Shown here: piece by piece, positions 11,216 to 41,565 of the stretch
Numbering within the stretch: the stretch's first letter is position 1
How the letters are laid out: every line of letters begins with the position of its first letter
Origin: Gammaproteobacteria bacterium
Lineage (GTDB): Bacteria > Pseudomonadota > Gammaproteobacteria > Steroidobacterales > Woeseiaceae
Direction of reading: 5' to 3'
Assembly: GCA_009937505.1 (NCBI GenBank)
Contig: JAACFJ010000013.1
Coordinates: 1-46,083, forward strand
Length of the DNA stretch: 46,083 nucleotides
Program-made: the position numbers and the translations under genes
Notes under the pieces: model-generated
What the model was told of the DNA's origin: nothing
Seen by the model: only the letters and a program-made list of their open reading frames with translations
Database searches by the model: none

Positions 11216-11496
11216 GGGACTGCCACGTTCGTGATTCCTTTGCGCAATTAGCGGGTGCTCAGCACGATGTTAGCCTGCCAACTGATTCCCAGGCAAAGCA
11301 GTCGCTCGAATGGCTGCTCCTGGGAAATGTTGACTGACTGCTATCGGCCAATAGCGGACGTTCGCCACGATCCGATCAGCCTGACGACCGGGACGGTAGT
11401 GATCGCGGGGTAGACGATCAGCGGCCAGGTTCGGCTCCAGAAAAGGTAATACAATCAGCATAGAGAACTATCCCGAACGGTAGCCACAAACGTCCC

Positions 11497-24086: not shown

Positions 24087-25559
24087 TCAGACATCCGGGT
24101 GCCATTCACGACCGTCCCGGTCCAGCAGCAACGACGAAGCCGCCGGACCCCAGGAGCCCGCAACGTAGGTCTCTACTTTTTGTTTCGATGCTGCCCAGCT
24201 CTCGATGATCGTGTCGATCCAGTGCCACGCCGCCTCGACCTCGTCACGACGCATGAACAAGGCGGGATTACCTCGCAGCACTTCCATGAGCAGGCGTTCG
24301 TAGGCGTCCGGATAACGCACGCCGAATGTCTCCTCGAAACTGAGATCGAGTGACACGGGACGCAGGTCGAATCCGCCCGGGCCGGGTTCCTTCGCCATGA
24401 CCGAGAGTTTTACGCCCTCATCCGGCTGCAACCGTATCGTCAGACGATTTGGCGCCACGTTGTATTTCTGCTCCGGGAATATCGAATGCGGTACTTCCTG
24501 GAACTGCACGACGATTTCGGAATGCTTGCCTTTGAGGCGTTTGCCTGTGCGCAGGTAGAACGGCACGTTGGACCAGCGCCAGTTATCGATCTCGAGTTTC
24601 AGGGCGACGAATGTCTCCGTGCTGCTCTTGTTCTCGCCCAGCTCTTCTGCGTATCCGGCCACCGTCTTGCCGTCGATGGCACCCGCGGTGTACTGGCCGC
24701 GGACGGTGCTCGTTCTTACTGCTTCTTCGTTAATCGGCCGCAGGGCACGCAACACCTTGATCTTCTCGTCGCGCACTGCGTCGTGGTGCAGACTCGACGG
24801 CGCCTCCATCGCGACGAGACAAACGAGCTGCAGCAGGTGATTCTGAACCATGTCGCGAAGCGAACCGATCTTGTCGAAGTACTCGATGCGTCCCCCGACC
24901 CCCAGGTCTTCCGCGACCGTGATCTGCACGTGATCGATCGCGCCGCGCCGCCACAGCGGTTCGAACAGGGAATTGGCGAAACGCAGTGCGAGCAGGTTCT
25001 GCACCGTCTCCTTGCCGAGGTAATGATCGATTCGGTAGATCTGGTTCTCCGCGAAACAGTCACCCACCTCGTTATTTATCGTACAGGCGGACTCGTAGTC
25101 GTGCCCCAGCGGCTTCTCGAGCACGATGCGGCTATTGGAGGAGATGAGGCCGTTCTTCTTCAGTCCCTGCGCGATGGTGCCGAACAGGCTCGGCGCCGTC
25201 GCAAGGTACGCGACGCGTATACGGTCTTCGCCGTCCGCAAGCAGGTCGACGAGTGCGCCCCAGTTGTCGTGGTCGTACGCGTCGCTTTGCACGTAATGGA
25301 TGCGATCGCGCAGCTTCGCCCACTCGGCGTCATCGAAATCGCCACTGCCGAGATTGTCCTGCAGCGCCTGCTCGACGAGACCGAGGTACTCGTCGCGGCC
25401 CAGATCACCGCGGCTGGCCGCAATGACGCGGCTATCGCCCGTGATCTGACCGTCACGTTCGCGGTGGTACAGCGCCGGCAGCAACTTGCGCATGGCCAGG
25501 TCGCCGGTACCGCCGAATATGACGAGGTCGAAAACATCGACCGGTACGAAATTAGCCAT
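24087..25559 (-). CDS. zwf: Glucose-6-phosphate 1-dehydrogenase
   Basis: The product is 490 residues and the first enzyme of the operon, oxidising glucose 6-phosphate to the lactone with NAD(P)+. It has the dinucleotide-binding FGGTGDLAMRKLLPAL at the N-terminus and the catalytic RIDHYLGKETVQNL with the active-site His and Lys, plus the C-terminal YERLLMEVLRGN. ATG 25559 is preceded by GAGGGA. Upstream on the minus strand a TTGTCA and a TAGTAAAAT lie in a -35/-10 arrangement, and a HexR-type operator (25580-25594) covers the -10 region. Repression by HexR with release by KDPG is the established mechanism for this regulator and is inferred here. Confidence 0.95.
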   Translation of the reverse strand: MANFVPVDVFDLVIFGGTGDLAMRKLLPALYHRERDGQITGDSRVIAASRGDLGRDEYLGLVEQALQDNLGSGDFDDAEWAKLRDRIHYVQSDAYDHDNWGALVDLLADGEDRIRVAYLATAPSLFGTIAQGLKKNGLISSNSRIVLEKPLGHDYESACTINNEVGDCFAENQIYRIDHYLGKETVQNLLALRFANSLFEPLWRRGAIDHVQITVAEDLGVGGRIEYFDKIGSLRDMVQNHLLQLVCLVAMEAPSSLHHDAVRDEKIKVLRALRPINEEAVRTSTVRGQYTAGAIDGKTVAGYAEELGENKSSTETFVALKLEIDNWRWSNVPFYLRTGKRLKGKHSEIVVQFQEVPHSIFPEQKYNVAPNRLTIRLQPDEGVKLSVMAKEPGPGGFDLRPVSLDLSFEETFGVRYPDAYERLLMEVLRGNPALFMRRDEVEAAWHWIDTIIESWAASKQKVETYVAGSWGPAASSLLLDRDGREWHPDV

Positions 25560-25579
25560 CGGGAATCCCTCTGCGAATC

Positions 25580-25594
25580 TGAAATTTTACTACG
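25580..25594. promoter_or_regulatory. HexR operator 1 (zwf side)
   Basis: TGAAATTTTACTACG matches the HexR consensus TGTARTWWWAYTACA at 13 of 15 positions. It lies 21 bp upstream of the zwf ATG and overlaps the TAGTAAAAT -10-like element on the minus strand. Binding would block RNA polymerase at the operon promoter. Confidence 0.75.
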
Positions 25595-25607
25595 AAATAA
25601 CCCGAAA

Positions 25608-25637
25608 TTGACAAATTATCTGGCTTTTTAGCAAAAT
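25608..25637 (+). promoter_or_regulatory. Probable hexR promoter
   Basis: A perfect TTGACA -35 element (25608-25613) is followed after 18 bases by CAAAAT (25632-25637), which keeps four of six -10 bases. Transcription would begin near 25644, inside HexR operator 2, leaving a 5' leader of roughly 12 bases. Confidence 0.5.
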
Positions 25638-25641
25638 TCTT

Positions 25642-25656
25642 TGTAGTTTTACTACA
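25642..25656. promoter_or_regulatory. HexR operator 2, touching the hexR start codon
   Basis: TGTAGTTTTACTACA fits all 15 positions of the HexR consensus TGTARTWWWAYTACA and is a near-perfect palindrome. Its last base is the A of the hexR ATG. The operator therefore covers the predicted transcription start and implies direct autorepression. Confidence 0.88.
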
Positions 25657-26489
25657 TGTTACACCGGATCGAACAGCAAGCCGCGTCCCTGAGCCGCGCC
25701 GAAAAGCGCGTTGCGAACTGGGTCCTGGCTCATCCACGCCAGGCGGCCGATGCTACCCTGGCCGAGGTTGCGCGGGCCTGCGGCGCCAGCGAGCCGACGG
25801 TGATCCGCTTTTGCCGCAGCGTCGGGCTCAGCGGTTTCCGCGAGCTGACGATACGCCTGACGGAGGCGTTGAGCCGCCCCGCCAGCTACGTGCACCGCGA
25901 CGTAAGCAGCGACGATGCGACGTCCGATGCGGTCACCAAGGTGCTCGACGCGGCAATCTCGTCGCTAATGGACATGCGTGCGCAGTTACTTGCCATGCCG
26001 ATCGACGAGGCGGCGGCCGCCCTTTACAAAGCCCGGCAGATCACATTTATCGGACTCGGCGCATCGGGACACGTCGCTGCCGACGCGCGCCACAAGTTCT
26101 TCCGTCTCGGCACGCCGTGCAGCGCGCACACGGACACGCCCAGCATCCTGCAGGCCGCTGCCATTGCCGGGGCGGGCGATGTCCTGATCATTGTTTCGCA
26201 CCTCGGAGGCTGGGCCGAACTCGACCGGGCCGCAGCCGCCGCCCGGGAAAACGGGGCGACGGTCATCGCCCTGACGAACCCCTCTTCCCAGCTTGCGCGC
26301 AACGCGAACCTCGTTTTCGGCTGGGACCCGCACGAGGACACGAGCGTCTACACGCCGATGAGTTCGCGCCTCGCGCAACTCGCACTACTTGACGCGCTGT
26401 ACGTCGCCTTTGCGCTGTCGCTGGGCGATGTTGCCGCGGAAAACCTGCGCCGCAGCAAGGACGCGTTGCAGGCGATCGTCCAGCGATAG
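25656..26489 (+). CDS. hexR: HexR, RpiR-family repressor of glucose catabolism
   Basis: The product is 277 residues. An N-terminal RpiR helix-turn-helix (ADATLAEVARACGASEPTVIRF) is followed by a SIS sugar-phosphate domain (ITFIGLGASGHVAADARHKF, IIVSHLGGWAELD), whose ligand in characterised HexR proteins is KDPG. The gene is divergent from zwf and lies over two HexR-type operators, which supports the name. No Shine-Dalgarno precedes ATG 25656: the upstream bases are the operator itself and the predicted leader is very short, so the mRNA may be translated as a leaderless or near-leaderless message. It is convergent with the polyphosphate glucokinase gene, with four bases between stops. Confidence 0.92.
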   Translation: MLHRIEQQAASLSRAEKRVANWVLAHPRQAADATLAEVARACGASEPTVIRFCRSVGLSGFRELTIRLTEALSRPASYVHRDVSSDDATSDAVTKVLDAAISSLMDMRAQLLAMPIDEAAAALYKARQITFIGLGASGHVAADARHKFFRLGTPCSAHTDTPSILQAAAIAGAGDVLIIVSHLGGWAELDRAAAAARENGATVIALTNPSSQLARNANLVFGWDPHEDTSVYTPMSSRLAQLALLDALYVAFALSLGDVAAENLRRSKDALQAIVQR

Positions 26490-26493
26490 GCGG

Positions 26494-27252
26494 CTACCTC
26501 TCGTTCGCAGCCGCCAGTGCCGCGCCGATAATGCCGGCATCGTTCCTGAACGCTGCAACATGGATCGGCGTATCAACGAGAATCTTGTTTTCGTACTTGT
26601 GCAGCTTCTTGCTCGCGCCGCCGCCCAGGATGAAATGATCCGGTGAAAACACCCTTACGACACGCTCCAGGAAATAGTTGAACCGTTCGCCCCACTCGCC
26701 CCAGGAGAGATCGTTGTCCTTCCTGGCTTTGTCCCCGGCATAGAACTCGATCGGCTCGCCGTCCTTGCCGGGCATGCGCCCAAGTTCGATGTTGGGAATC
26801 AGCTGCCCGTTATAGAAAATACCGGTGCCGAGGCCGGTGCCGATGGTCACCATGATGACCATGCCCTGCAATCCCCGTCCAGCGCCGTTTTGCATCTCGG
26901 CGATGCCCGCGGCATCCGCATCGTTGATCATCACGAACGGCTGCCCGGTGCGGCCCGCAAACAGCTCGTCCGCCTGCACTCCGCGCCAGGACTTGTCGAT
27001 ATTGCCTGCTGTACGCGCCCGCCCGGAAATGATCACAGCCGGGAAACTGCAACCGACAGTGCCGCTGTAGGCGAAATGCTCGACGAGTTGCGCAACGACC
27101 TCGGCGATATTCTCCGGCGTCGACGGTTGCGGTGTGTCGATGCGGTGCCGGCCGCCGACGAGCCTCGCGTCATCAACGTCGACCAGCGCAGCCTTGATGC
27201 CGGAACCGCCAACGTCAATACCGAGAAGCTGCGAGCTTGTAGGGTTGTACAT
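26494..27252 (-). CDS. ppgK: Polyphosphate glucokinase, ROK family
   Basis: The product is 252 residues. ROK kinase features are [17 protein letters not shown] for phosphate binding, [13 protein letters not shown] with the catalytic Asp, and a glycine-rich [16 protein letters not shown]. The [14 protein letters not shown] and [13 protein letters not shown] segments are characteristic of PpgK-type enzymes, which can use polyphosphate as well as ATP, in place of the zinc-binding cysteine motif of other ROK proteins. ATG 27252 is preferred; an in-frame TTG ten codons upstream has no better ribosome site. It probably provides a second, energy-sparing route to glucose 6-phosphate beside glk. Donor preference is inferred from the family. 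Confidence 0.88.
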
Positions 27253-27426
27253 ACTCCGAGGAGACCGGTTGCGCGCAAACAAGAACTATATCGGGTTTGC
27301 CGGCATCTCGTAAGTAACTGATTTTATATGACCTAAGTACTTCCACGCATTGCCGTTTCGGGCCCGTTCAAGCACAAATAAGGGCAGCGTAAGGTAGGGC
27401 GGATGCGCCGCCCAAGGGAGCACGAA

Positions 27427-28032
27427 ATGCGCAGATTCCTCATCGCCAGTATTGGAGTTTTCTCGCTGGCATTCTCGTCTGCCGCCGCGGCGGGCGACTA
27501 CCAGGATGGCCGTGACGCCTACGACGTCGGCGACTTCGACACGGCCATGGCCGTATGGGCGCCGGCGGCGGAGAGCGGCGATGCCGACAGCCAGTACGGC
27601 ATGGGACTGCTGTATTCCGAAGGCATAGTCGTCCCGATGGACGATATCCAGGCCTTGAAGTGGTTTGGCCTCGCAGCCGACCAGGATCAAGGTGAGGCAC
27701 AGTACAAGTTGGGCGTCATGCACGCCAACGGCTGGGGCGTACCCATGAGCGAAGTCGATGCCATGAAGTGGTACAAGCTCGCTGCCGAGAACGGCGTAAC
27801 GGCTGCCCAGGTGAGTCTCGGAACCATGTATCAGAACGGCTTTAGCGTCGAGCAGGACAAGGTCGAAGCACTCAAGTGGTTCACCATTGCCGTGAAACTC
27901 GGCGACGGAGACGCCGGCATGCACCAGGACTACCTGGCTGAACGCATTTCGGCCGAGGAACTCGCCAAGGCAGACGCCGACGTCAATGCCTGGTTCAACG
28001 ACCACCAGACGATGCTGGCGGAAACCCGCTAG
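27427..28032 (+). CDS. Secreted Sel1-like repeat protein
   Basis: The product is 201 residues. It begins with a signal peptide (MRRFLIASIGVFSLAFSSAAAAG) and continues with about four Sel1-like repeats of 36 residues (for example AQYKLGVMHANGWGVPMSE and AAQVSLGTMYQNGFSVEQD). Such solenoids bind partner proteins in the periplasm or outer membrane. The AGGGAG seven bases before ATG 27427 fixes the start, and an in-frame ATG eight codons earlier is rejected. No partner is evident. Two tandem hairpins follow its stop and probably end this transcription unit. Confidence 0.85.
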   Translation: MRRFLIASIGVFSLAFSSAAAAGDYQDGRDAYDVGDFDTAMAVWAPAAESGDADSQYGMGLLYSEGIVVPMDDIQALKWFGLAADQDQGEAQYKLGVMHANGWGVPMSEVDAMKWYKLAAENGVTAAQVSLGTMYQNGFSVEQDKVEALKWFTIAVKLGDGDAGMHQDYLAERISAEELAKADADVNAWFNDHQTMLAETR

Positions 28033-28052
28033 CGCGACAAAGCTTGCCCATA

Positions 28053-28114
28053 GGACGGCCACCCGCCGTCCATAAATTTCGGGGCGTCCTTCGCGGCGCC
28101 CCGAATTGTTGTTA
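28053..28114 (+). terminator. Tandem stem-loops after the Sel1 gene
   Basis: GGACGGC-CACCC-GCCGTCC (28053-28071) is a perfect 7-bp hairpin. Seven bases later TTCGGGGCG (28078-28086) pairs perfectly with CGCCCCGAA (28097-28105), and TTGTTGTTA follows, giving a probable intrinsic terminator. The first hairpin may add 3'-end protection. Confidence 0.65.
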
Positions 28115-28276
28115 CGAACCCGTACTCGATTCGTGCAGAACGGCGACGTAACGCGAACAGCCCCTCGAGCCACCTGGCCACGGCCGCGAAAAATCCCGGG
28201 GTCATGCTGTGACGTGCTTCGGCTATAGTGATCGTTGCGGAATCGACGAAGCACTGACTGACGATCGGGAGACATC

Positions 28277-30130
28277 ATGCGACTAGTGAGACTGGCCATT
28301 ATTGCCTTCCTGTTGACGCTTTCTGCCGCACCCGGCGGCGCCCAGGAAATCGAACGTATCGAGCCGCCATTCTGGTGGGCCGGGTTCGAGCACCGCGAAC
28401 TGCAGCTGATGCTTCACGGCAACAACATCTCCTTGCTCACGCCCGCCGTCGACCACGAGGGCGTTTCGATCAGCAGGGTCGTGCGTGTCGCAAGCCCGAA
28501 CTACCTGTTTGTCTACCTCGACATCGGACCGGGTGCCGAACCGGGCCCCTTCGATATCGCTTTCTCGGAGGGCGATTACACGATTACGCGCACCTACGAA
28601 TTGCGCCGCAAGAATCCCGATGCCGGTCACGTGAAAGGGTTTACCTCCGCCGATGCAATCTACCTGATCATGCCGGATCGCTTTGCCAACGGTGACCCGA
28701 ACAATGACGAATTCTACTTTCTCGACGACAAGCTCGATCGCGACGACCCTTACGGCCGTCATGGCGGCGACCTGAAGGGAATCGAGAACCACCTCGATTA
28801 CATTGCCGGCATGGGCTTCACGTCCGTCTGGCTGAATCCTGTTCTCGAAATCGCGATGCCGGTCGCGTCATACCACGGCTACGCCACGACCGACTATTAC
28901 GCCGTGGACCCCCGCCTGGGCACTAACGAACAATTGCGACAACTCGCCGCGAAGATGAAAGCGCGCGGCATTGGCATGATCATGGACCAGGCCGTCAATC
29001 ACATCGGCAGCGGGCACTGGTGGATGGACGACCTGCCCACGAGCGACTGGCTCAACTTCCAGGGCGACCCGGTCATGACGCCGCACCGGCGCACGACCAA
29101 CATGGACCCGCATGCGTCTGAGTACGACAAGACGCTGCATGCGGACGGCTGGTTCGTGGAGTCCCTGCCGGACCTTAACCAGCGCAACCCCTTGCTCGCC
29201 GACTACCTGATCCAGAGCTCGATCTGGTGGGTCGAATATGCCGGCCTGCAGGGCATCCGCGTGGGTTCCTGGCCCTACCCGGAAAAGCACTTCATGAGCG
29301 AATGGACCCGGCGCATCCTGCAGGAATTCCCCGACTTCAACATCGTCGGCGAAGAGTGGAGCGAGCTGCCGGCCGTGACGTCCTACTGGCAGCGCGGTCA
29401 GCATAAGGATGATGCTTATGAGTCGTTTCTGCCGAGCGTGTTCGACTTCCCCACCCAGGCGGCGTTCACACGCGCGCTGACCGGGGACCCGGAAAGCTAC
29501 GGCGGCGTCTGGATGTCGCTGTACGAGATTGTCGCCATGGATTTCCTGTATCCGGACCCGATGAACCTGGTCATCTTCCCCGGCAATCATGAAATGGATC
29601 GCATCTACACCCAGCTCGACGAGAACTTCGACCTGTATCGGATGGCGATGGTCTACTACGCTACGATGCGCGGCATCCCGCAGTTCTTCTACGGCGACGA
29701 AATTGTCGCCTCGCACCCCGGCACGAGCAGCCACGGCGAGCTACGCAGCGATTTTCCGGGCGGCTGGGATGGTGACACGGTGAATGCATATACCGGTGAA
29801 GGTCTCACTGAGAAGCAACGGGACGCGCAGCAGCTCGTAAGGACGCTGCTGAACTGGCGCAAGAACAACTCAACGATCCATCACGGCAAGTTCATGCATT
29901 TCGCGCCGATCGGGAATGTCTACGTGTATTTCCGTTACGACGCGGACCTCACGATCATGGTCATTCTCAACCGTGACGAAGAGACGGTTGCGTTGGATAC
30001 CGGTCGCTTCGCCGAACGCATTGGTGACGCGACGCACGGCACGGACGTGGTCACCGGACAACGCTTCAACATCGAGGACTCACTCGTGCTGGAGCCGCGC
30101 TCGGCACTCCTGCTGGAACTGGAGCGCTAG
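28277..30130 (+). CDS. Secreted GH13 amylase-like protein with substituted catalytic residues
   Basis: The product is 617 residues with a signal peptide (MRLVRLAIIAFLLTLSAAP, cleavage near AQ-E), an N-terminal cyclomaltodextrinase-type beta domain (about 25-130), a GH13 barrel (about 140-520) and a C-terminal beta domain. It resembles periplasmic neopullulanase or cyclomaltodextrinase-like enzymes. Region I keeps Asp237 and NH241-242 (MDQAVNH), and the acid/base Glu359 is present (IVGEEW). Region II, however, reads GIRVGSWPY where family members have G-x-R-x-D-T-x-P-Y: the nucleophile Asp is Gly330. In region IV the catalytic Asp is Glu439 (FPGNHEMDR). The protein is probably not a normal hydrolase and may bind maltodextrins. 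ATG 28277 has GGGAG five bases upstream. It precedes malQ and the glg operon. Alignment was by eye. Confidence 0.85.
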   Translation: MRLVRLAIIAFLLTLSAAPGGAQEIERIEPPFWWAGFEHRELQLMLHGNNISLLTPAVDHEGVSISRVVRVASPNYLFVYLDIGPGAEPGPFDIAFSEGDYTITRTYELRRKNPDAGHVKGFTSADAIYLIMPDRFANGDPNNDEFYFLDDKLDRDDPYGRHGGDLKGIENHLDYIAGMGFTSVWLNPVLEIAMPVASYHGYATTDYYAVDPRLGTNEQLRQLAAKMKARGIGMIMDQAVNHIGSGHWWMDDLPTSDWLNFQGDPVMTPHRRTTNMDPHASEYDKTLHADGWFVESLPDLNQRNPLLADYLIQSSIWWVEYAGLQGIRVGSWPYPEKHFMSEWTRRILQEFPDFNIVGEEWSELPAVTSYWQRGQHKDDAYESFLPSVFDFPTQAAFTRALTGDPESYGGVWMSLYEIVAMDFLYPDPMNLVIFPGNHEMDRIYTQLDENFDLYRMAMVYYATMRGIPQFFYGDEIVASHPGTSSHGELRSDFPGGWDGDTVNAYTGEGLTEKQRDAQQLVRTLLNWRKNNSTIHHGKFMHFAPIGNVYVYFRYDADLTIMVILNRDEETVALDTGRFAERIGDATHGTDVVTGQRFNIEDSLVLEPRSALLLELER

Positions 30131-30172: not shown

Positions 30173-30310
30173 CGCCCCTGCCGTGCTCCCGGGATGGTCC
30201 TGATCCTCCCTGCAGGCGCCTGACCGATACCCGGTCTGCACGCCAGGACAACAACAACCTGGCTCGAGTGGGGTTTAATAAGACATTATTTGCAACTTCT
30301 CCTGTATCTC

Positions 30311-31855
30311 ATGACCCAGTCAACAAACGGACACTCCGTATCTGCGCGGCAAGCCGGCGTCTGCATGCACCTGACGTCACTGCCGGGCCCTTACGGTATC
30401 GGCGAGATCGGCCGGCACGCCCGGACCTTCATCGATCGCCTGCGGGACATGAAGCTGACAGTCTGGCAATTCCTGCCCACCGGCCCGACCGCGTACGGCG
30501 ATTCGCCGTACCAGCCGCTTTCGACCTTTGCCGGCAACGAGATGCTCATCGACATTGGCGACCTCATCGGGAACGGCTTCCTGACAGAGGAGGAAGTGAG
30601 CGAACTAACGACCCTGCCCCGAAGTTTCGTCGACTACGGCGCGCTGATCCCCGTCAAGAGCCGGCTGCTCAGGACGGCGGCGGGGCGGTTTCGGGAGTCC
30701 GCGAGCCCCGAACTGCAAGAGGTGTATGGGCGGTTCCTGGCGGCGCACGACGCGGGGTGGCTGCACGACTACGCCCTGTTCCGGGTCCTCAAGACGCGAC
30801 ATGGAGAACGTCCCTGGCCCGAGTGGCGGCAGGATTACGCCCAACGCGACCCCGAAGCGATCCGCGAGCTCGAAACGTCTGCGGCACTCCAAATCGAGCT
30901 GATCAAAATCACACAGTGCATGTTCTACTACCAGTGGCAGGCACTGCGAGACTACGCGCGCGAAAATGGCGTGCGTCTTTTCGGGGACATGCCGATCTAC
31001 ATCGCGCTCGACAGCTCTGACGCATGGGTGAACCGCGACATCCTGCAGCTGGACGAGGAAGGCAGGCCGAGCCACGTCGCGGGCGTGCCGCCGGACTACT
31101 TCAGCGAAGACGGTCAGCTCTGGGGCAATCCCCTGTATGCCTGGGAGCATCACAAGGAAACCGGATACAGCTGGTGGATCGACCGGCTACGTGCGTCGGC
31201 GGAGCTCGCCGATCTCGTGCGAATCGACCATTTCCGCGGCTTCGAAGCCTACTGGTCCGTGCCCGCGGAATCGGAAACCGCCCGTGTCGGCGGCTGGGAG
31301 CCGGGTCCGGGCGACGCGATCTTCGACGCCATGGAGGATGCGCTCGGTGACCTGCCGATCGTCGCTGAAGACCTCGGCGTGATAACCCCGGAAGTGGACG
31401 CCTTGCGCGAGTGCCACCACATCCCCGGCATGCACGTGCTGCAGTTCGACGTCGTGGACGAAGAAATCGACGTAAGCGATTTCGACGAGAATTCGGTCTG
31501 CTACACCGGCACCCACGACAACGACACGACCATTGGCTGGTTCAGCGGCAGCCCGGACGACATTCGATCCCGCGACGAGATCGTTGCCACGCAGCAGGCC
31601 GCACTGCGGGTCACCGGCGGAAAGCCCGAAACCATCCACCTCGACATGATACGGACTGCGTTCGCCACCCGGTCGAAGATCGCGATCGCGCCAATGCAGG
31701 ACTATCTCGGACTGGGCTCGGAGGCAAGATTCAACGTGCCGGGCACCTCCGGCAATAACTGGCGTTGGCGCATACTCGACGCACAATTGAGCGACGCAGT
31801 CTGCGACAATGTCGCAGCAATGGTAGCGGCCGCAGGGCGTGCGCCGGCCCGGTAG
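30311..31855 (+). CDS. malQ: 4-alpha-glucanotransferase (amylomaltase, GH77)
   Basis: The product is 514 residues. It transfers alpha-1,4-glucan segments between maltodextrins and releases glucose, working with GlgP and GlgX. GH77 marks are TSLPGPYGIGEIG near the N-terminus, WQFLPTGPTAYGDSPYQ, VRIDHFRGFEAYW with the nucleophile Asp, PIVAEDLGVI with the acid/base Glu, and YTGTHDNDT with the third Asp. ATG 30311 is favoured; a TTG seven codons upstream is also open and neither has a good ribosome site. It precedes glgC by 83 bp and is probably part of the same glycogen locus. Confidence 0.93.
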   Translation: MTQSTNGHSVSARQAGVCMHLTSLPGPYGIGEIGRHARTFIDRLRDMKLTVWQFLPTGPTAYGDSPYQPLSTFAGNEMLIDIGDLIGNGFLTEEEVSELTTLPRSFVDYGALIPVKSRLLRTAAGRFRESASPELQEVYGRFLAAHDAGWLHDYALFRVLKTRHGERPWPEWRQDYAQRDPEAIRELETSAALQIELIKITQCMFYYQWQALRDYARENGVRLFGDMPIYIALDSSDAWVNRDILQLDEEGRPSHVAGVPPDYFSEDGQLWGNPLYAWEHHKETGYSWWIDRLRASAELADLVRIDHFRGFEAYWSVPAESETARVGGWEPGPGDAIFDAMEDALGDLPIVAEDLGVITPEVDALRECHHIPGMHVLQFDVVDEEIDVSDFDENSVCYTGTHDNDTTIGWFSGSPDDIRSRDEIVATQQAALRVTGGKPETIHLDMIRTAFATRSKIAIAPMQDYLGLGSEARFNVPGTSGNNWRWRILDAQLSDAVCDNVAAMVAAAGRAPAR

Positions 31856-31938: not shown

Positions 31939-33228
31939 ATGGTCAGCCAAGCCGCCACTGAAGACGCGCGCTTTGTAAGCCGGCTCACGCGGGAAACCGT
32001 CGCCCTGATTCTCGCGGGCGGCCGGGGCTCGCGCCTGCACGAACTCACCAACTGGCGCGCAAAGCCGGCACTGTACTTCGGCGGCAAGTTTCGAATTATC
32101 GATTTCCCGCTGTCGAACTGCATCAACTCAGGCATTCGCCGCATTGGCGTGCTCACCCAGTACAAGGCGCACTCGCTGATCCGGCACCTGGTGCAGGGCT
32201 GGTCATGGTTCCAGGCAGGGGCCGGCCAACGCGAATTCGTGGAGATATTGCCTGCGTCGCAGCGGGTTGGCGGCGAGTGGTATCGCGGCACCGCGGACGC
32301 CGTCTACCAGAACCTCGATATCATCCGCACTCACGACCCGCGCTTCGTGCTCATTCTCTCGGGCGACCATGTCTACAAGATGGATTACGGAGCCTTCCTT
32401 GCCGCGCACGCGGAGCGGGAAGCGGACATGACCGTATGTTGCCTCGAGGTGCCGCTCGAGGAGGCGGCCGGCCAGTTCGGCGTCATGACCGTGGACGAGA
32501 CCGGCCGCGTTATCAAATTCACGGAAAAACCGGAGCATCCGGATCCCGTTCCCGGCAAGCCGGATATCTGCCTCGCGTCGATGGGCAACTACGTCTTCAA
32601 CACCGAGTTCCTCTACGAACAGGTGATCAAGGACGCCGATACGGTGGGAACGCAGCACGACTTCGGCCGTAACATCATTCCCTCGATCATCGACAACTAC
32701 CGCATCTATGCCTACCCGTTCCGCGACTCGAAGACCGGCGAGCAGGCCTACTGGCGGGACGTCGGCACACTCGACGCGTTCTGGGAGGCAAACATGGAGT
32801 TGGTCGCGGTGACGCCGCAGCTCGACATGTACGACAAGGTCTGGCCAATCTACACGCACCAGACGCAGGACCCGCCGGCCAAGTTCGTATTCGACGAAAA
32901 AGACCGCAGGGGCTATGCCCTGAATTCGATGGTATCCGGCGGCAACGTAATCTCCGGTGCGTTCGTCAACCGCTCGCTGCTGTTCTCACGCTGCCACGTG
33001 CATTCGCACAGCAAGATAGAAGACTCCCTGATCCTCCCCGACGTCGATATCGGCAAGCGCTGCCGCATCAAGCGCGCGATCATCGACCGCGGCACAGTGC
33101 TCGAGGAGGGTACGGTCGTCGGCGAAGATTCGGACGCCGATCGCGAACGCGGCTTTCGCATCACGGAAAACGGCATTACGCTCGTGACGCCGGACATGCT
33201 CGGCCAGCAATTGCATTTCACGCGTTGA
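31939..33228 (+). CDS. glgC: Glucose-1-phosphate adenylyltransferase
   Basis: The product is 429 residues. It makes ADP-glucose, the committed step of bacterial glycogen synthesis. The nucleotidyltransferase core is intact: [44 protein letters not shown] and [16 protein letters not shown]-terminal left-handed beta helix with hexapeptide-like repeats follows ([20 protein letters not shown]). GGAGGA lies about eight bases before ATG 31939. It starts the glgC-A-B-P-X run, with the next gene beginning one base after its stop. Confidence 0.96.
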
Positions 33229-33229
33229 G

Positions 33230-34798
33230 TTGAGGCAGGCCGTTATCGCTACCAGGCAGGTCCTTTTTATTGCCGCAGAGAACGGCGCATTGCCAGGCGG
33301 CAAAGTCGGCGGTGTCGGCGACGTCGTGCGCGACCTGCCGCGCGCACTGCATGCCGAGGGGTGGCGGGCGGTCGTTCTGACGCCGTCGTACGGCGCATTT
33401 CACCGCCTTCCCGGTGCCACCGAACTACCGCCGATCGCGGTCCGGTTTCGCGGTAGCGAGCACGACGTCCGCGTATTCGAACTGGTCGTGGAATCGGTGA
33501 CTACCGTGCTGTTCGAGCACGATCTCCTCGTGCCGACGGAAACCGGGCGTGTCTACCATGACGACGGCCCTTTACGCCCGTACGCAACCGACGCCAACAA
33601 GTTCGCGTTCTTCTGCGCTGCCGCCGCAAGCTGGATCGATACGCTGGCAAGCCTGCCCGATGTCGTGCACCTGCACGACTGGCATGCCGCATTTTATCTG
33701 CTGCACCGTGAATTCTCGCCGGACGGGGAACGCCTCCGGCAGATCCCGACCGTTTTCACGATTCACAATCTTACTTACCAGGGCCAGCGCCCGCTGCGAC
33801 ACAACGAATCTTCGCTCGAAGCCTGGTTCCCGGACATGAACTACGATGCCAGGGTGCTTGCGGATCCGTTTGCCGACGACTGTATCAACCCGCTGGCGTT
33901 CGCGATCCGCCGCGCCGATCGTATCAATACGGTTTCACCGACCTATGCGCAGGAAATACAGTGCCCCAGTAATCCCGACACGGGTTTCATCGGCGGTGAA
34001 GGCCTGGAAAAGGACCTGACCCGGGCGGCCGAGCAAGAACGCCTGTTCGGAATTCTGAATGGCTGCGAATACCCGGCGAGCCTCGGACGGCGCCCCGGCT
34101 GGCAGCGGCTCCTGATGGCCGGATGTGAAACCGCAGAGGCCTGGCTCCGGGATGATCCAGGCACTGCCGTTCACGAACTCGCTCTCGGCCGCCTGAACGC
34201 GCTGCCGAATCGCCGGCCTCTGCATATACTTACCAGCGTCGGACGAATCGTCTCGCAAAAAATGCAGCTCTTCTTCGAGCCGCTCGCGGACAGGCGCAGC
34301 GCGCTCGAACACATCCTGAACAAGCTGGGCCGCAGCGGCGTGCTGATACTGCTCGGCAGCGGTGAAAGCGACTACGAGGAGCGCCTCGAGCGCATCGCCG
34401 CGAAGCACTCGAACTTCGTGTTCCTGCGCGGCTACGCGGAGGAGTTCGGCAGTTTGCTGTATCACGGCGGCGACCTGTTCCTGATGCCGTCGAGTTTCGA
34501 GCCTTGCGGCATCAGCCAGATGCTTGCGATGCGCGCCGGCCAGCCATGTGTCGTGCACGGCGTCGGCGGCCTGCACGACACCGTCGAGAGCGGCGCCACG
34601 GGTTTTGTGTTCGCCGGCCGGACACGTGCGGAGCAGTCCGCCGCATTCGTCGATTGCGTCGAACAGGCCCTGAAGCTGCGGCACGATCACCCGAATCGCT
34701 GGCAGAAGATAAGGAATGAGGCCGCGGCGCAGCGTTTTGACTGGGCCTCGTCGGCACGGCAATACATCGGACAACTGTATGAACACGATCGCAACTGA
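33230..34798 (+). CDS. glgA: Glycogen synthase (GT5)
   Basis: The product is 522 residues, somewhat longer than the 477 typical of the family. It adds glucose from ADP-glucose to the glucan end. The start appears to be TTG 33230, one base after the glgC stop. No ATG or GTG occurs before the conserved N-terminus ([21 protein letters not shown], where K-x-GG holds the substrate loop). Later motifs are [29 protein letters not shown], and the C-terminal [20 protein letters not shown] with the E-x7-type acid pair region. The extra length is spread over insertions in both domains. Its 3' end overlaps glgB by 20 bases, so the two are coupled. Confidence 0.93.
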
Positions 34799-36971
34799 CA
34801 CCGCGAACAACAAGGATGACTACGCGGCACTCGCGGGCGGTCATCACGGCGATCCCTTCAGCGTACTCGGCGTCCACCAGGCGGGCGGTTCGCGCATCAT
34901 CCGCACGCTGCAGCCTCACGCCGAGCGCGTCGAGATCATCGACAGCCAGGGCACGCTGCTCGCGGAGACGGCACGCGTGCATCCCGACGGCATTTTCGCC
35001 GCCGTCATGCCGCCGCGGCTGCGCCACTACCGGCTGCGCCTGACCACGACCGTCGGCGACACTCTGGAAATCGAGGACCCGTACCGCTTTCCTACGACGC
35101 TGGGCGACCTCGACCTTTACCTGTTCGGGGAAGGCTCGGACAAGCAGATTTACGCCAAGCTCGGCGCGCAACTGCGCACTGTATCGGGCATAAGCGGTAC
35201 GCGTTTCGCCGTTTGGGCGCCGAATGCCTCGCGTGTCAGCGTCATCGGCGACTTCAACGACTGGGACGGTCGCCGCCACGCGATGCGCCTGCACCCGGCC
35301 AACGGGCTATGGGAAATATTCATCCCGGGGGTCGGCAGCGGCGAGAAATACAAGTTCGAACTGCTCGACCACAAAGGTCACCTTCTGCCGCTGAAGAACG
35401 ACCCGTTCGGGCATTACCACGAGCCGCCGCCCGGCAACGCATCCATCGTGTTCGCGAGCAAATACCAGTGGTCGGACTACCCGTGGATGCAGCGCCGCAC
35501 CGCGGGTCCGGAACTCGACCGGCCTATCAGTATCTACGAAGTGCACCTCGGCTCCTGGCGGCGCCGGACCGAGGGCGGCGACCGTTATTTGAGCTACCGC
35601 GAACTCGCCGACGAACTTGTCGACTATGTAAGCGACATGGGTTTCACGCACATGGAATTGCTGCCCGTGTCGGAGCACCCGTTCGACGGTTCGTGGGGCT
35701 ACCAGCCAATCGGCATGTACGCACCGACGCAGCGCTTCGGCAACCCGGACGATTTCCGTTACTTCGTGGATCGCTGTCACGCGGCCGGCATTGGTGTCAT
35801 TGTCGACTGGGTGCCGGCGCATTTTCCGCGCGACGAACACGGCCTGCGCCGCTTCGACGGCACGGCGATATACGAGCACGAAGATCCGCGCAAGGGCGAG
35901 CACGCGGACTGGGGCACGCTGATATTCAACTTCGGCCGCCGCGAAGTCATCAACTATCTCATCGGCAGCGCGCTTTACTGGATCGACGAATTTCATGTCG
36001 ATGCGCTGCGGGTGGACGCCGTCGCGTCGATGCTCTACCTCGACTACTCCCGCGAAGACGGGGAATGGGTGCCGAACGAGTTCGGCGGCAACGAAAACCT
36101 GGAGGCCGTCGCTTTTCTCAAGCGCCTGAACACCGAACTGCACGCACACGGCGCGACGACCTATGCGGAAGAGTCCACGGCCTGGCCCGGCGTGTCGCGC
36201 CCCGTGGACCAGGGTGGCCTGGGCTTCACATTCAAGTGGAACATGGGCTGGATGAACGACACCCTGTCGTACATGGGCGAAGACCCGGTGCATCGCAAGC
36301 ACCATCACGACAAGATGACCTTCGGTCTCGTCTACGCCTTCAACGAGAACTTCGTGTTGCCGTTGTCACACGACGAAGTCGTGCACGGCAAACGCTCCCT
36401 GCTCGGCCGCATGCCCGGCGACGAGTGGCAGCGTTTCGCCAATCTGCGCGCCTATCTCACCAGCATGTATGCGCATCCCGGCAAGAAACTGCTGTTCATG
36501 GGGTCCGAACTTGCGCCCTACGACGAATGGAGCCACGATCGCTCGCTCGACTGGCACCTGCTCGACTATGCACCGCATCGGGGCGTGCAGTCACTGGTGC
36601 GCGACCTGAACGCACTCTATCGGAGCACACCGGCGCTCTACGAAATCGATTTCACCGATGCCGGGTTCGAGTGGATCGACTGGGGCGACCGCGACAACAG
36701 CGTACTCAGCTGGCTGCGCCGCGACGCCTCCGGCAACTTCGTGATATGCGTCTCGAACATGACGCCGGTCGTCAGGCATGATTTTCGCATGGGGGTTCCC
36801 GGGGGAGGCCGTTATCGGGAGCTGCTGACCACAGACGACGTGCGTTACGGTGGCAGCGGCGTCCTCAATGGCGACCTCGAAGCGAGCAACACCGGGATGC
36901 ACGGGCGCGAATTCTCTATCGCAATGTCCTTGCCGGCGCTCGCGACCATTATCGTAGGACCGGTGTCTTAG
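34779..36971 (+). CDS. glgB: 1,4-alpha-glucan branching enzyme (GH13)
   Basis: The product is 730 residues, the normal length for the full bacterial form. It makes alpha-1,6 branches in glycogen. Domain order is an N1/CBM48 region ([32 protein letters not shown]), the GH13 barrel, and a C-terminal beta domain. Catalytic residues are Asp413 in [16 protein letters not shown], Glu464/465 in [15 protein letters not shown] and Asp532 in [13 protein letters not shown] use ATG 34779; the longer frame from 34716 starts inside glgA and adds a non-family basic stretch. It overlaps glgA by 20 bases and precedes glgP by 24 bp. Confidence 0.96.
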
Positions 36972-36995
36972 TGAGGCACTCCAGGAGACCGTTGC

Positions 36996-39512
36996 ATGGC
37001 AAGCAAATCTGACAAGTCACTGGGATTGGGCGATATCGAGCTGTTGCAGACACCGAGTCTGCCGATGACGGCGGATGCCATCCTGCAGGACTTCACGCAT
37101 TACTTCGGCCGCATGCTCGGCCGCCGCACGATACGCACCAAGTCGCCATTCCTCTACCAGGCCGTCGTGTTTACGGCGCGCGACCGCATTATGGAGCGCT
37201 GGGCCAAGACGCGTCTTGCGATGGAACGCGACCAAGTACGGCGCGTGAGTTACCTTTCGCTGGAATTCCTCATGGGTCGACTCCTGCACAACGCGCTGCT
37301 CAGCGTGGGCATCGAGAATGAGACACGCGAAGCGCTTGGCCGGCTGGGCCTCGACCTCGAGACGGTATTCGACCGCGAAGCCGATGCCGGCCTCGGCAAC
37401 GGCGGCCTCGGCCGTCTCGCGGCGTGCTTCCTCGACAGCTGCGCGACCCTTGCCCTGCCTGTGGTCGGCTACGGCATCCGTTACAACTACGGCATGTTCC
37501 ACCAGCGCATAGAAAACGGCCGCCAGGTCGAGGAGCCGGATCCGTGGTTGCGCGAAGGCTTCCCGTGGGAGGTCGAGCGTTATGAATTTGCGCAGACCGT
37601 CAAGTTTGGCGGCCACACGACGACGTACAGGGATATGTCGGGCAAGACCCGCTATCGCTGGGCCGACACGCGGGATGTGCTCGCAATCCCCTACGACGTG
37701 CCCGTGCCGGGCTATCGTAACGACATCGTCAATACGCTGCGCCTCTGGTCCGCGGCTGCCACCGACGAGTTCGACCTCAATGAGTTCAACGCCGGCAGCT
37801 ATACCGACGCGGTGGCATCGAAGAACGAAGCCGAAAACATCACGATGGTGCTGTACCCGAATGCGGCCACCGAGACCGGGCAGGAACTGCGGCTTCGGCA
37901 GCAGTACTTCCTCGCCTCGGCAAGCCTGCAGGACGCGCTGCGTTACTGGAACTACCACCACGATGGCGACCTGACGGGCTTCGCCGAGAAGAACTGCTTC
38001 CAGCTCAACGACACGCACCCCGCCGTCGCGGTCGCGGAGCTCATGCGGCTGCTGATCGACGACTACATGCTCGATTGGGACGAGGCCTGGGACATTACCC
38101 GCAAGACCATGGCCTACACGAACCATACGCTGCTGCCGGAAGCGCTCGAGATGTGGCCCGTGTCGATGTTCCGGCGCCTGCTGCCGCGCATTCTCGACAT
38201 CATCTACGAGATAAACGCGCGCTTTATCGCCGAGATCAACCGCCGCTGGCCCGGCGACACGGATCGCATCGCCCGCATGTCGCTGATCCAGGAAGGCCAC
38301 GAGCCCATGATACGCATGGCCTACCTCGCCCTCGTCGGCAGCTATTCCGTCAACGGCGTCGCCGAGCTGCATTCACGGTTGCTGCAGAAAGGTTTGTTCC
38401 GCGACTTTGCGGAGCTGTGGCCGGAGAAATTCAACAACAAGACGAACGGCGTGACCCAACGGCGCTGGCTCGCCGCGTGCAACGGCGGCCTGGCTGATCT
38501 AATCAGCAGCAAGATCGGCGACGGCTGGGTGACCAACCTCGATGAGCTGGAGCAATTGCGGGAATTCGCGGACGATACCGAATTCCAGAGCGAGTGGCGC
38601 AAGGTCAAGCTGCTCAACAAGAATCGCCTCACGCACGCGCTGCAGGAAAAGACCGGCATCAACGTAGAGAGCAACATGCTGTTCGACGTGCAGGTGAAGC
38701 GCATCCACGAATACAAGCGGCAGCTTCTGAATGTCCTGCATGCCATCCACCTGTACGACCGCATTCGTCGCGGCGAGGCAGACGACCTGCCGCCGCGCGC
38801 GATCATCATTGGCGGCAAGGCTGCGCCCGGCTACGTCATGGCGAAGCACGTCATCAAGTGCATTAACAATGTCGCACGCGTCATCAACTCTGACCCATTG
38901 ATGGACGACCGGCTGCGCCTGCTGTTCTACCCGGACTACAACGTGTCCGCGATGGAGATCATCTGTCCCGCAGCCGATCTGTCGGAGCAGATTTCGACTG
39001 CCGGCAAGGAAGCGTCGGGCACCGGCAACATGAAATTCATGATGAACGGAGCCGTAACAATCGGTACGCTCGATGGCGCCAACGTGGAGATACGCGAAGC
39101 AGTCGGCGAACAGAATTTCTTCCTGTTCGGACTTACCGTCGAAGAAATCCAGGCGATGCGTGGCCAGTACGATCCGCAGGCCATCATCGATGCGGACGAG
39201 GATTTCAGCCGCGTCATGCACCTGCTCGACAGCGGGCACTTCAATCGCTTCGAACCCGGCGCGCTGGATGCGGTCGTCCAGTCGATTCGGGAACCCGCCG
39301 ACCAGTGGATGACGGCCGCGGACTTCCGCGGCTTCATCGACGCACAGCGCGAGACTGACGCAAGCTATCGTGAACCGGAACGCTGGACCCGCATGAGTAT
39401 TCTCAACACGGCGGCATCGGGGCGCTTTTCGACGGACCGCACGATGCGCGACTACAACGACGACATCTGGCACCTCGAACCCATCAGCCTGGATGTACCG
39501 AAGCCCGAGTAA
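36996..39512 (+). CDS. glgP: Glycogen/alpha-glucan phosphorylase (GT35)
   Basis: The product is 838 residues. It releases glucose 1-phosphate from glycogen ends with phosphate. The PLP site is intact: Lys680 in EASGTGNMKFMMNGAVTIGT. Other marks are VRRVSYLSLEFLMGRLL, DAGLGNGGLGRLAACFLDS and VQVKRIHEYKRQLLN. AGGAG precedes ATG 36996. It sits between the branching and debranching genes, so it probably works on outer chains before GlgX trims the limit dextrin. Allosteric behaviour is not predictable here. Confidence 0.96.
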   Translation: MASKSDKSLGLGDIELLQTPSLPMTADAILQDFTHYFGRMLGRRTIRTKSPFLYQAVVFTARDRIMERWAKTRLAMERDQVRRVSYLSLEFLMGRLLHNALLSVGIENETREALGRLGLDLETVFDREADAGLGNGGLGRLAACFLDSCATLALPVVGYGIRYNYGMFHQRIENGRQVEEPDPWLREGFPWEVERYEFAQTVKFGGHTTTYRDMSGKTRYRWADTRDVLAIPYDVPVPGYRNDIVNTLRLWSAAATDEFDLNEFNAGSYTDAVASKNEAENITMVLYPNAATETGQELRLRQQYFLASASLQDALRYWNYHHDGDLTGFAEKNCFQLNDTHPAVAVAELMRLLIDDYMLDWDEAWDITRKTMAYTNHTLLPEALEMWPVSMFRRLLPRILDIIYEINARFIAEINRRWPGDTDRIARMSLIQEGHEPMIRMAYLALVGSYSVNGVAELHSRLLQKGLFRDFAELWPEKFNNKTNGVTQRRWLAACNGGLADLISSKIGDGWVTNLDELEQLREFADDTEFQSEWRKVKLLNKNRLTHALQEKTGINVESNMLFDVQVKRIHEYKRQLLNVLHAIHLYDRIRRGEADDLPPRAIIIGGKAAPGYVMAKHVIKCINNVARVINSDPLMDDRLRLLFYPDYNVSAMEIICPAADLSEQISTAGKEASGTGNMKFMMNGAVTIGTLDGANVEIREAVGEQNFFLFGLTVEEIQAMRGQYDPQAIIDADEDFSRVMHLLDSGHFNRFEPGALDAVVQSIREPADQWMTAADFRGFIDAQRETDASYREPERWTRMSILNTAASGRFSTDRTMRDYNDDIWHLEPISLDVPKPE

Positions 39513-39516
39513 AGCC

Positions 39517-41565
39517 ATGGAGACCGGCAGCCCTGCCCCGCTCGGCGCTACGCCGGACGACGACGGCGTCAATTTCGCCGTCTATTCCTCGGTCGCCGAG
39601 TCGGTCGAGCTATGCCTTTTTACCAGGCACGGGAAACTCGAGCGTTCTCACCGGCTGCCCGCCTGTACGGACGGCATCTGGCACGGCTACCTGCCGCGCT
39701 GCAAGCCCGATCAGCACTATGCGTATCGCGTTCACGGTCCGTGGCGCCCTGAAGAAGGCCTGCGCTGCAATCCCAACAAGCTGTTGCTGGACCCCTACTC
39801 CCGCGACGTTGCCGGAGACTTTCACTGGCACGACGCGGTGTTCGACTACCTGCCGGGCGCCGATGTCTTCACGATGAGCCCGGCGGACAGCGCCGATTAC
39901 GTTCCGAAATCGGTCGTCTGCTCGCCACTGGATATCCCGCTCCATGCGCGCCCCGCGGTACCGTGGTCGAAGACCATCATCTACGAGTCGAATGTGCGCG
40001 GTTACACCATGCGACATCCGGCGGTCAGCAGGAAACATCGCGGCACCTTTGCCGGCATGTGCAATGCAACCGTACTCGATTACCTGAAATCGCTGGGTAT
40101 CAGCTCGATTGAACTCATGCCGGCTCAGGCCTACATCGACGAGCATCATCTCGCGAAGCGAGGCCTGCGTAATTACTGGGGCTACAACACCATCGCATTC
40201 TTCACGCCGATGCCGCGGTTCGCGGCCGGCGATGCGCGGCACGAATTCGTCGACATGGTCAACGCCATCCACGATGCCGGCATGGAGGTGATCCTCGATA
40301 TCGCGTTCAACCATACCGGCGAAAGTGACGGCCACGGCCCGACGCTCAGCTTCCGCGGCCTGGACAACCAGGCCTACTACCGCCTCGAACCGCACGACCC
40401 TGCCGCCTACATCAACGACACGGGCACCGGCAACACGCTTAACGCCGATCACCCGCAGGCCCAGGCGTTGGTGCTTGACTGCCTGCGCTACTGGTCGGGC
40501 GAGCTCGGGGTGGATGGATTCCGATTCGATCTCGCGACCATCGTCGGACGCCATGCGCACGGTTTCTCCGCCGAACACCCCTTGCTGAACGCGATCAGCG
40601 ACGACGCACAGCTCAAAGACGTCAAGCTTATCGCCGAGCCGTGGGATCCGGGCCCGGGCGGCTACCAGCTCGGTCAATTTCCCGATCGCTGGGCGGAATG
40701 GAATGACAAATATCGCGACACGGTGCGTCGCTTCTGGCGCGGTGACGCCAACATGAACGGCCGATTCGCCCGCCGCCTGCATGGGTCGGCGGATATTTTC
40801 GACCACCGCGGCCGCGCGCCGTATGCCAGCGTGAACTTCGTGACGAGCCACGACGGCTTTACGTTGGCCGACGTCGTCAGTTATGAACATCGCCACAACG
40901 AAGCCAATGGCGAAGACAATCGCGACGGCCATGCACACAACTACAGCAGCAATCACGGCGTCGAGGGCGACACGGACGACGCGGACGTAATTGCCGCGAG
41001 GCGGAGGCATCGCCTGAACCTGATGGCGTCGCTGCTGCTGTCACAGGGCACGCCGATGCTGCTCGCGGGCGACGAGTTCGGTAATACGCAGGGCGGTAAC
41101 AACAACGCCTACGCGCAGGACAACGAAACGGGCTGGCTGGACTGGTCCGGGCTCGAGGACGACCCTGAATTTGCGATGGAGGTTCGCGAGCTGATTCACC
41201 TGAGACAGGAGTGGCCCTTGCTGCGCCTCCCGGAATACCTGCACGGCGAAACGGTGGTCGGCTCTTCTTCAGTGCACATCGACTGGCTGAACGCGGATGG
41301 CAACGAAATGCACGAAGGCGACTGGTCGGGACCGGCACCGTTCAAGGTCATGTTCGCCGAGGCATCGAGGGACGGCGTGAATTCACGGGTGGCGGTGTTA
41401 TTCAATAACGGCGACGACGCGGTCGATTTCCGTCTGCCGAACGGGAGTCCCGGCCAGTCCTGGCGGGTTGCGTGGTCCGCGGACGAAGTCTCGGTCGCCG
41501 ACGACGGCTGCTCGTTCACGGCGCCAGGGCGCTCGATCTCCTTCCTGGTGTCAGACCCCGGCTAA
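39517..41565 (+). CDS. glgX: Glycogen debranching enzyme, isoamylase type (GH13)
   Basis: The product is 682 residues. It hydrolyses alpha-1,6 links in phosphorylase limit dextrins. A CBM48-like N-domain (GVNFAVYSSVAESVELCLF) precedes the barrel, which carries GVDGFRFDLATIVGR with the nucleophile Asp, LIAEPWDPGPGGYQLG with the acid/base Glu, and FVTSHDGFTLADVVSY with the third Asp. ATG 39517, four bases after the glgP stop, gives the normal METGSPAPLGAT start; ATG 39493 inside glgP is a weaker alternative. Its TAA overlaps the TAG of the convergent Lrp gene, so no terminator fits between them. Confidence 0.94.
   Translation: METGSPAPLGATPDDDGVNFAVYSSVAESVELCLFTRHGKLERSHRLPACTDGIWHGYLPRCKPDQHYAYRVHGPWRPEEGLRCNPNKLLLDPYSRDVAGDFHWHDAVFDYLPGADVFTMSPADSADYVPKSVVCSPLDIPLHARPAVPWSKTIIYESNVRGYTMRHPAVSRKHRGTFAGMCNATVLDYLKSLGISSIELMPAQAYIDEHHLAKRGLRNYWGYNTIAFFTPMPRFAAGDARHEFVDMVNAIHDAGMEVILDIAFNHTGESDGHGPTLSFRGLDNQAYYRLEPHDPAAYINDTGTGNTLNADHPQAQALVLDCLRYWSGELGVDGFRFDLATIVGRHAHGFSAEHPLLNAISDDAQLKDVKLIAEPWDPGPGGYQLGQFPDRWAEWNDKYRDTVRRFWRGDANMNGRFARRLHGSADIFDHRGRAPYASVNFVTSHDGFTLADVVSYEHRHNEANGEDNRDGHAHNYSSNHGVEGDTDDADVIAARRRHRLNLMASLLLSQGTPMLLAGDEFGNTQGGNNNAYAQDNETGWLDWSGLEDDPEFAMEVRELIHLRQEWPLLRLPEYLHGETVVGSSSVHIDWLNADGNEMHEGDWSGPAPFKVMFAEASRDGVNSRVAVLFNNGDDAVDFRLPNGSPGQSWRVAWSADEVSVADDGCSFTAPGRSISFLVSDPG

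Follow-up and report, generated by a model that had tools for sequence, protein, structure and literature searches.

The window analysed here is a 46,083-nucleotide stretch (positions 1 to 46,083 of contig JAACFJ010000013.1, assembly GCA_009937505.1) from a marine gammaproteobacterium of the family Woeseiaceae. On its plus strand, at 28277..30130, translation, Pfam matches, alignment and a predicted model identify a gene for an apparently exported protein of 617 amino acids that belongs to the GH13_46 type of glycoside hydrolase (GH) family 13 and has a degenerate catalytic triad, G330/E359/E439. Residues 1–22 (28277..28342) resemble a Sec signal peptide (MRLVRLAIIAFLLTLSAAPGGA|QE). This assignment, already made in the first-pass annotation, is still a judgement by eye, helped by the similar look of the printed N termini of relatives and by a helix at residues 2–16 of the model. 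The segment has no cysteine, so the protein is likely not a lipoprotein. Three Pfam domains follow on the same strand, all scoring above their cut-offs: domain N (Cyc-maltodext_N, PF09087, 90.6 bits; residues 27–111, 28355..28609), the GH13 (beta/alpha)8 barrel with domain B, also seen in the model (PF00128, 159 bits; residues 131–491, 28667..29749), and domain C (Cyc-maltodext_C, PF10438, 83 bits; residues 540–614, 29894..30118). The reading frame is unbroken, in agreement with the earlier description of a full-length protein free of frameshifts.

Among solved structures, the best match was the cyclomaltodextrinase of Flavobacterium sp. 92 (1h3g, 647 bits), with mutant forms of it and also SusA (9fyz) and 9dcq among the best relatives. 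The window protein is 47% identical to 1h3g across 593 residues, in an alignment that begins at residue 23, and its predicted fold is intact, lying 1.5 Å from 1h3g over 593 residues. It thus shares with the GH13_46 structures (1h3g and 3edd–f, SusA 9fyz, BcGH13A 9dcq) the fold, the order of domain N, barrel and domain C and, by eye, the signal peptide. A low-confidence stretch of the model at residues 191–210 is not a sign of damage, as the intact sister P0006 was modelled no better there (block means of 45 and 51 versus 52 and 70 when the two models are compared).

Two of the three catalytic positions are changed. At the nucleophile position, which is Asp in intact relatives and corresponds to SusA residue 331, the window protein has Gly330 (codon GGT, 29264..29266, where GAT would have encoded Asp), directly followed by Ser331 (TCC). 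The transition-state stabiliser, also Asp in intact relatives, is Glu439 (GAA, 29591..29593), and the acid/base Glu359 (GAA, 29351..29353) is kept. In the motifs GIRVGSWPY (326–334), VGEEW (357–361) and FPGNHEMDR (434–442), G330 aligns with the Asp of GLRID in 1h3g, E359 with the first Glu of GEEW, a position occupied by Gln in the crystallised chains 3edd and 3edf, and E439 with the Asp of GGNHD; no Asp aligns at position 330. These readings bear out the triad given in the first-pass annotation except in one detail: the Gly before NHE (Gly436), which had been counted as part of the loss, is ordinary, since 1h3g itself reads GGNHD and, of the 23 rows with an intact triad in the clade described below, 7 have PGNHD. 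Sequencing error was ruled out because two proteins from other metagenome sources, P0003 (87% identical) and P0004 (86%), likewise carry both G330 and E439.

GH13_46 was defined on 108 sequences with an intact triad among the selection criteria (excerpt of PMC9781549), and degenerate proteins were therefore left out by construction. Compared with that definition, the window protein has the N-terminal module resembling that of the Flavobacterium cyclomaltodextrinase (PF09087, residues 27–111), the fold as predicted, and a Glu straight after the proton donor of conserved sequence region (CSR) III (E359–E360). It departs from it in the triad, with G330, E359 and E439 instead of Asp (beta4), Glu (beta5) and Asp (beta7); in CSR-V, which reads LPDLN at 297–301 rather than MPDLN (the 8 rows examined from the group P0033–P0048 retain Met297); and in CSR-II, which ends in WPY (332–334) rather than in two Tyr with Gly, Ser or Pro between them. 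WPY is a trait of the clade and not part of the loss, because the intact sisters P0005–P0017 have it too. By descent and fold the protein is of the GH13_46 kind; by its residues it is not a GH13_46 enzyme. For SusA and its Bacteroides ovatus relative, the D331N form is called catalytically inert, and acarbose occupies two sites in the wild type and one in the inert form (PMC11633381, excerpt). Judged from its residues and this precedent, the window protein is very probably dead, or nearly dead, as a hydrolase.

The loss is not an isolated case. We scored 7,999 candidates and listed the best 120; a profile built from 13 degenerate rows brought up, among its best 120, nothing new that was more than 61% identical to the window protein, and viral contigs contributed one relative, at 52%. 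On a tree of 125 rows built without the active-site columns, a 54-row clade containing the window protein is set apart with a support of 99. Outside it, the triad at positions 330/359/439 is DED in 70 of 71 rows. Inside it, DED (23 rows) stands beside DQD (10), GEE (5), DEE (4), AEE (3), PEE (3), ADE (3), DND (1), HED (1) and DTE (1), so that the nucleophile Asp or the acid/base Glu is gone in 27 of 54 rows. Some of these are near-copies: P0002 and the window protein differ by 2 residues. P0002 and P0003 represent 29 and 26 member sequences, respectively. P0114 is otherwise intact, with region IV aligned as FFNDPATTE, probably through a local frameshift or misalignment.

A more careful tree, built from 46 of the 54 clade rows plus 9 others (55 rows in all), requires three changes at position 330, four at 359 and two at 439. 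Placing the window trio and the P0033–P0048 group in a single nucleophile-less clade was rejected by the approximately unbiased (AU) test (p-AU 1.5e-7), and a single clade for all Glu439 rows was weakly rejected (p = 0.034). The residues were therefore lost repeatedly, and the window nucleophile loss was independent of the other large one. The window trio, the Glu439 group and the Q359 group nevertheless form one branch (support 73/81), and a single loosening of constraint at its base is possible. Lengths stay within 611–618 amino acids in all 31 non-DED clade rows, in groups differing at up to 24% of sites; protein databases, it must be said, favour intact open reading frames (ORFs). Intact sisters are 81% identical to the window protein.

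Ten rows (P0018, P0019 and P0021–P0028) keep both Asp residues and have Gln in place of the acid/base Glu, the same letter as in chains 3edd and 3edf; these may be a natural substrate-trap form. A second branch of the clade (P0051, P0052, P0058 and P0093) is also degenerate near the active site (DGHD, DGQD, HHD), with H330 in P0052 and N359 in P0093.

The recurrence of particular combinations raises the question of altered chemistry, in which a small residue at position 330 would let the longer Glu439 on strand beta7 reach the anomeric carbon and support a relocated or transferase reaction with Glu359. Fourteen of the 15 nucleophile-less rows combine Gly, Ala or Pro at position 330 with Glu439, and 11 of these 14 keep Glu359; Asp330 also occurs together with Glu439 (P0020, P0030, P0032 and P0034). 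Moreover, BmaN1, of the GH13_45 BmaN1 group, is a natural GH13 enzyme with the nucleophile and stabiliser changed and the acid/base Glu kept, and it is active despite this aberrant triad, a caution against equating such residues with inactivity (PMC5347038, excerpt). In BmaN1, a member of another subfamily, the nucleophile position is Lys, the conserved Asp after it possibly substitutes as nucleophile, and the stabiliser is His; the window protein has Gly–Ser and Glu at these places. In other relatives it is the acid/base that was lost, with Q at position 359 in 10 rows and T, N or D in others, a pattern that no common new chemistry fits, and the SusA change at the equivalent residue gives an inert protein. 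We consider altered chemistry improbable.

Loss of the catalytic residues has not released the protein from selection. Between the window gene and its counterpart in G037, the other genome with a degenerate copy, the ratio of non-synonymous to synonymous substitution (dN/dS, NG86) is 0.176/1.132 = 0.16, with dS near saturation; for neighbouring genes of the same two genomes it is 0.16 (pgl), 0.16 (sel1) and 0.06 (zwf). We also defined 168 near-invariant sites from 70 intact rows outside the clade and compared differences at these with differences at other sites. Because the sites were defined from those rows, the ratio among them (0.016) is low by construction, and the intact sister group (0.10) is the fairer control. 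The ratio was 0.33 in the window trio, 0.25 in the P0033–P0048 group and 0.36 in the Q359 group. P0001 and P0003, both G330/E439, differ at 9 of 168 near-invariant and 69 of 423 other sites (p = 1.3e-4), and in six tested pairs with both members nucleophile-less, variable sites change about 3 to 6 times as much as conserved ones. After the loss, constraint is thus clearly still at work, though less strict than in intact sisters. Of 18 other cleft or barrel residues, the majority persist across the 31 non-DED rows.

The first-pass annotation had proposed that selection kept the fold and that constraint should be compared with that of intact relatives. The predicted fold and the purifying selection agree with the first proposal, and the comparison shows that constraint is partly relaxed. 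Several observations here weigh against a retained function. Relative to zwf, the gene's rate (CD/zwf) is 4.3 in the degenerate pair versus 1.6–2.0 in 6 intact pairs; relative to hexR, 2.7 versus 0.7–1.3 in 10 intact pairs; and relative to malQ, 1.9 versus 1.1–1.3 in 3 intact pairs, an overall excess of 1.5 to 4 times that varies with the neighbour used. Conserved sites change about 3 times more in the window trio than in intact sisters (0.33 versus 0.10), and 11–13 of the 168 near-invariant sites are changed in P0001, P0003 and P0004, versus 3–9 in the 13 intact sisters P0005–P0017. Changed conserved sites number 2 of 41 in the cleft regions, whose boundaries are our own reading of the GH13 regions, and 11 of 123 elsewhere; the difference is not significant (p = 0.32) and does not point specifically to a binding role. 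The path between the window gene and G037 may also include time as an active enzyme, and there are only two degenerate-copy genomes to compare.

These two genomes are also set apart by their gene content. The GH13_46 gene occurs in 29 of 107 family genomes; reading the triad in one copy per genome gave 27 intact (two of these copies partial; G098 has two copies, of which one was read) and two degenerate, in the window genome (G000, 88% complete) and in G037 (95% complete). No further genome of the clade was found among the 107 family genomes, 396 order genomes (a subset of a larger group) and 23 loci. At E<=1e-80, a gene for a major facilitator superfamily (MFS) transporter is present in 26 of the 27 intact-copy genomes, the sole exception being G075 (73% complete), and in neither degenerate-copy genome, both of which gave only distant MFS matches and no orthologue. 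GH31 follows the same pattern (24 of 27 versus 0 of 2), and each of the 27 intact-copy genomes has at least one of the two genes. Eleven further family genomes carry the MFS gene without GH13_46; conversely, 67 of the 70 family genomes lacking the MFS gene also lack GH13_46. In a search of eight genomes, GH97 was absent from both degenerate-copy genomes and present in 4 of the 6 others. For TonB receptors the picture is less clear, with many matches in the other genomes, weak ones in G037 and none in G000. As the two degenerate-copy genomes are few and related, their shared gene absences may be one event.

Such absences favour slow decay, the main rival explanation, in which the pathway was lost, the hydrolase became unneeded and its catalytic residues drifted in a protein that is not yet broken. 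Together with the pathway orthologues not found in either genome, the faster evolution of the gene indicates that part of the pattern is relaxed constraint, and decay would also account for the excess of changed near-invariant sites and for the loss of different residues in different lineages. It sits poorly with the uniform 611–618 amino acids of all 31 non-DED rows (database bias notwithstanding), with a dN/dS equal to that of pgl and sel1, with the slow change of conserved sites in the six nucleophile-less pairs, and with the retention of all three domains and the hydrophobic N terminus. We regard decay as the less likely explanation, although it deserves serious weight.

In the window the order of neighbouring genes is zwf (minus strand) and a hexR-like regulator (plus strand, below its curated cut-off) at 24087..26489, identified by profile matches and forming a flank common to intact loci of relatives; a polyphosphate glucokinase (26494–27282, minus strand, by match in the window); a Sel1-repeat protein (27403..28032, plus strand, PF08238), exported by the look of its N terminus and 82% identical in G037; the pseudoenzyme gene; and then, all on the plus strand and by profile matches, malQ (4-alpha-glucanotransferase, 30290..31855), with which the downstream glycogen cluster begins, and glgC, glgA (below its curated cut-off), glgB, glgP and glgX (31939..41565). 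The position beside a malQ–glg cluster was thus correctly called at first pass. A minus-strand ORF at 27286–28299 was ruled out as a gene, having no family match and overlying the Sel1 gene on the opposite strand. G037 has no glucokinase match at the same place: hexR (ending at 11360) is followed directly by the Sel1 gene (from 11474).

We compared 20 stretches carrying a GH13_46 gene, from 18 other family genomes and two genomes of the same order. There, intact GH13_46 genes lie amid alpha-glucan utilisation genes. In L071, hexR is followed towards the end of the stretch by a LacI-type regulator, GH13, an MFS transporter, GH97, the intact copy, an FG-GAP-repeat ORF, GH31 and a GH13–esterase ORF; in L073, a TonB receptor adjoins malQ. 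hexR occurs on 7 of the 20 stretches and malQ on 5, and since the two never share one stretch, the position between them is pieced together from different genomes. Between hexR and malQ in the window and G037, only the pseudoenzyme and Sel1 genes were recognised (in the window also the glucokinase). Two features of the intact loci stand on their own: a single ORF fusing a GH13 match to an esterase match (L071:16195-18960), and tryptophan-halogenase-like flavoproteins near intact copies, one by Pfam match (L070:9194-10708) and two by opening residues only (L070:17678-19186 and L073:7455-8957).

Sel1-repeat proteins often bind proteins, and this one adjoins the degenerate copy in both genomes while being absent from the other stretches fetched for neighbour comparison. 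A non-catalytic subunit that binds or regulates an active amylase or another protein would fit this arrangement. Both SusA and the B. ovatus relative form dimers (PMC11633381, excerpt), and plant ISA2, a conserved GH13-type protein whose catalytic site is not functional, is the partner of ISA1 (PMC12510319, excerpt). ISA2 forms its complex with an active paralogue, whereas no second GH13_46 gene was found in the window genome at 88% completeness. Its three PF00128 genes encode the pseudoenzyme, GlgX and GlgB. The latter two are cytoplasmic glycogen enzymes, and the pseudoenzyme looks exported. Relatives of the Sel1 protein are present in 73 of the 107 family genomes, in five of them 11–28 kb from an intact copy on the same contig, so the adjacency may just reflect loss of the intervening genes. 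We hold a partner-subunit role to be hardly likely.

On balance, we favour a hydrolytically dead or nearly dead periplasmic pseudoenzyme, derived from GH13_46, under moderate constraint and probably glucan-binding. Taken separately, retention of some non-hydrolytic role is probable, and glucan binding as that role is a tentative assignment. The ancestor would have been a periplasmic maltodextrin hydrolase (SusA itself is periplasmic; PMC11633381, excerpt) belonging to a locus for alpha-glucan utilisation close to zwf/hexR and malQ–glg. In the window lineage, the import and hydrolysis genes of the locus would have been lost, the nucleophile Asp replaced by Gly and the stabiliser Asp by Glu, in an order that we infer, with the three-domain protein kept whole under continuing, looser purifying selection. 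Its likeliest role would be to hold malto-oligosaccharides in the periplasm, uncut, through the preserved cleft and domain N. As no maltodextrin transporter was found, such a ligand lacks an evident source, a further point on the opposing side. The heavy chains rBAT and 4F2hc are subunits of animal transporters. Likened by description, these GH13-related, non-enzymatic parts of amino-acid transporters offer a parallel (PMC9781549, excerpt). Among the matches listed from open PMC text, titles and opening abstract lines describe no dead GH13_46 protein. A bolder version, that secreted amylases of one lineage turned repeatedly into non-cutting glucan handlers and that, in the Gly/Ala/Pro330 branches, Glu439 became a new reactive carboxylate for a relocated or transfer reaction, strikes us as very improbable.

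The 54-row clade thus holds a natural series, from intact triads through stabiliser-only changes to acid/base losses and nucleophile losses, with the genomic setting known for two degenerate copies. This series allows direct tests of the route from glycoside hydrolase to pseudoenzyme and of whether binding outlives catalysis. It also warns that a glycosidase label on genes of this kind can lead to an overestimate of starch use by these bacteria.
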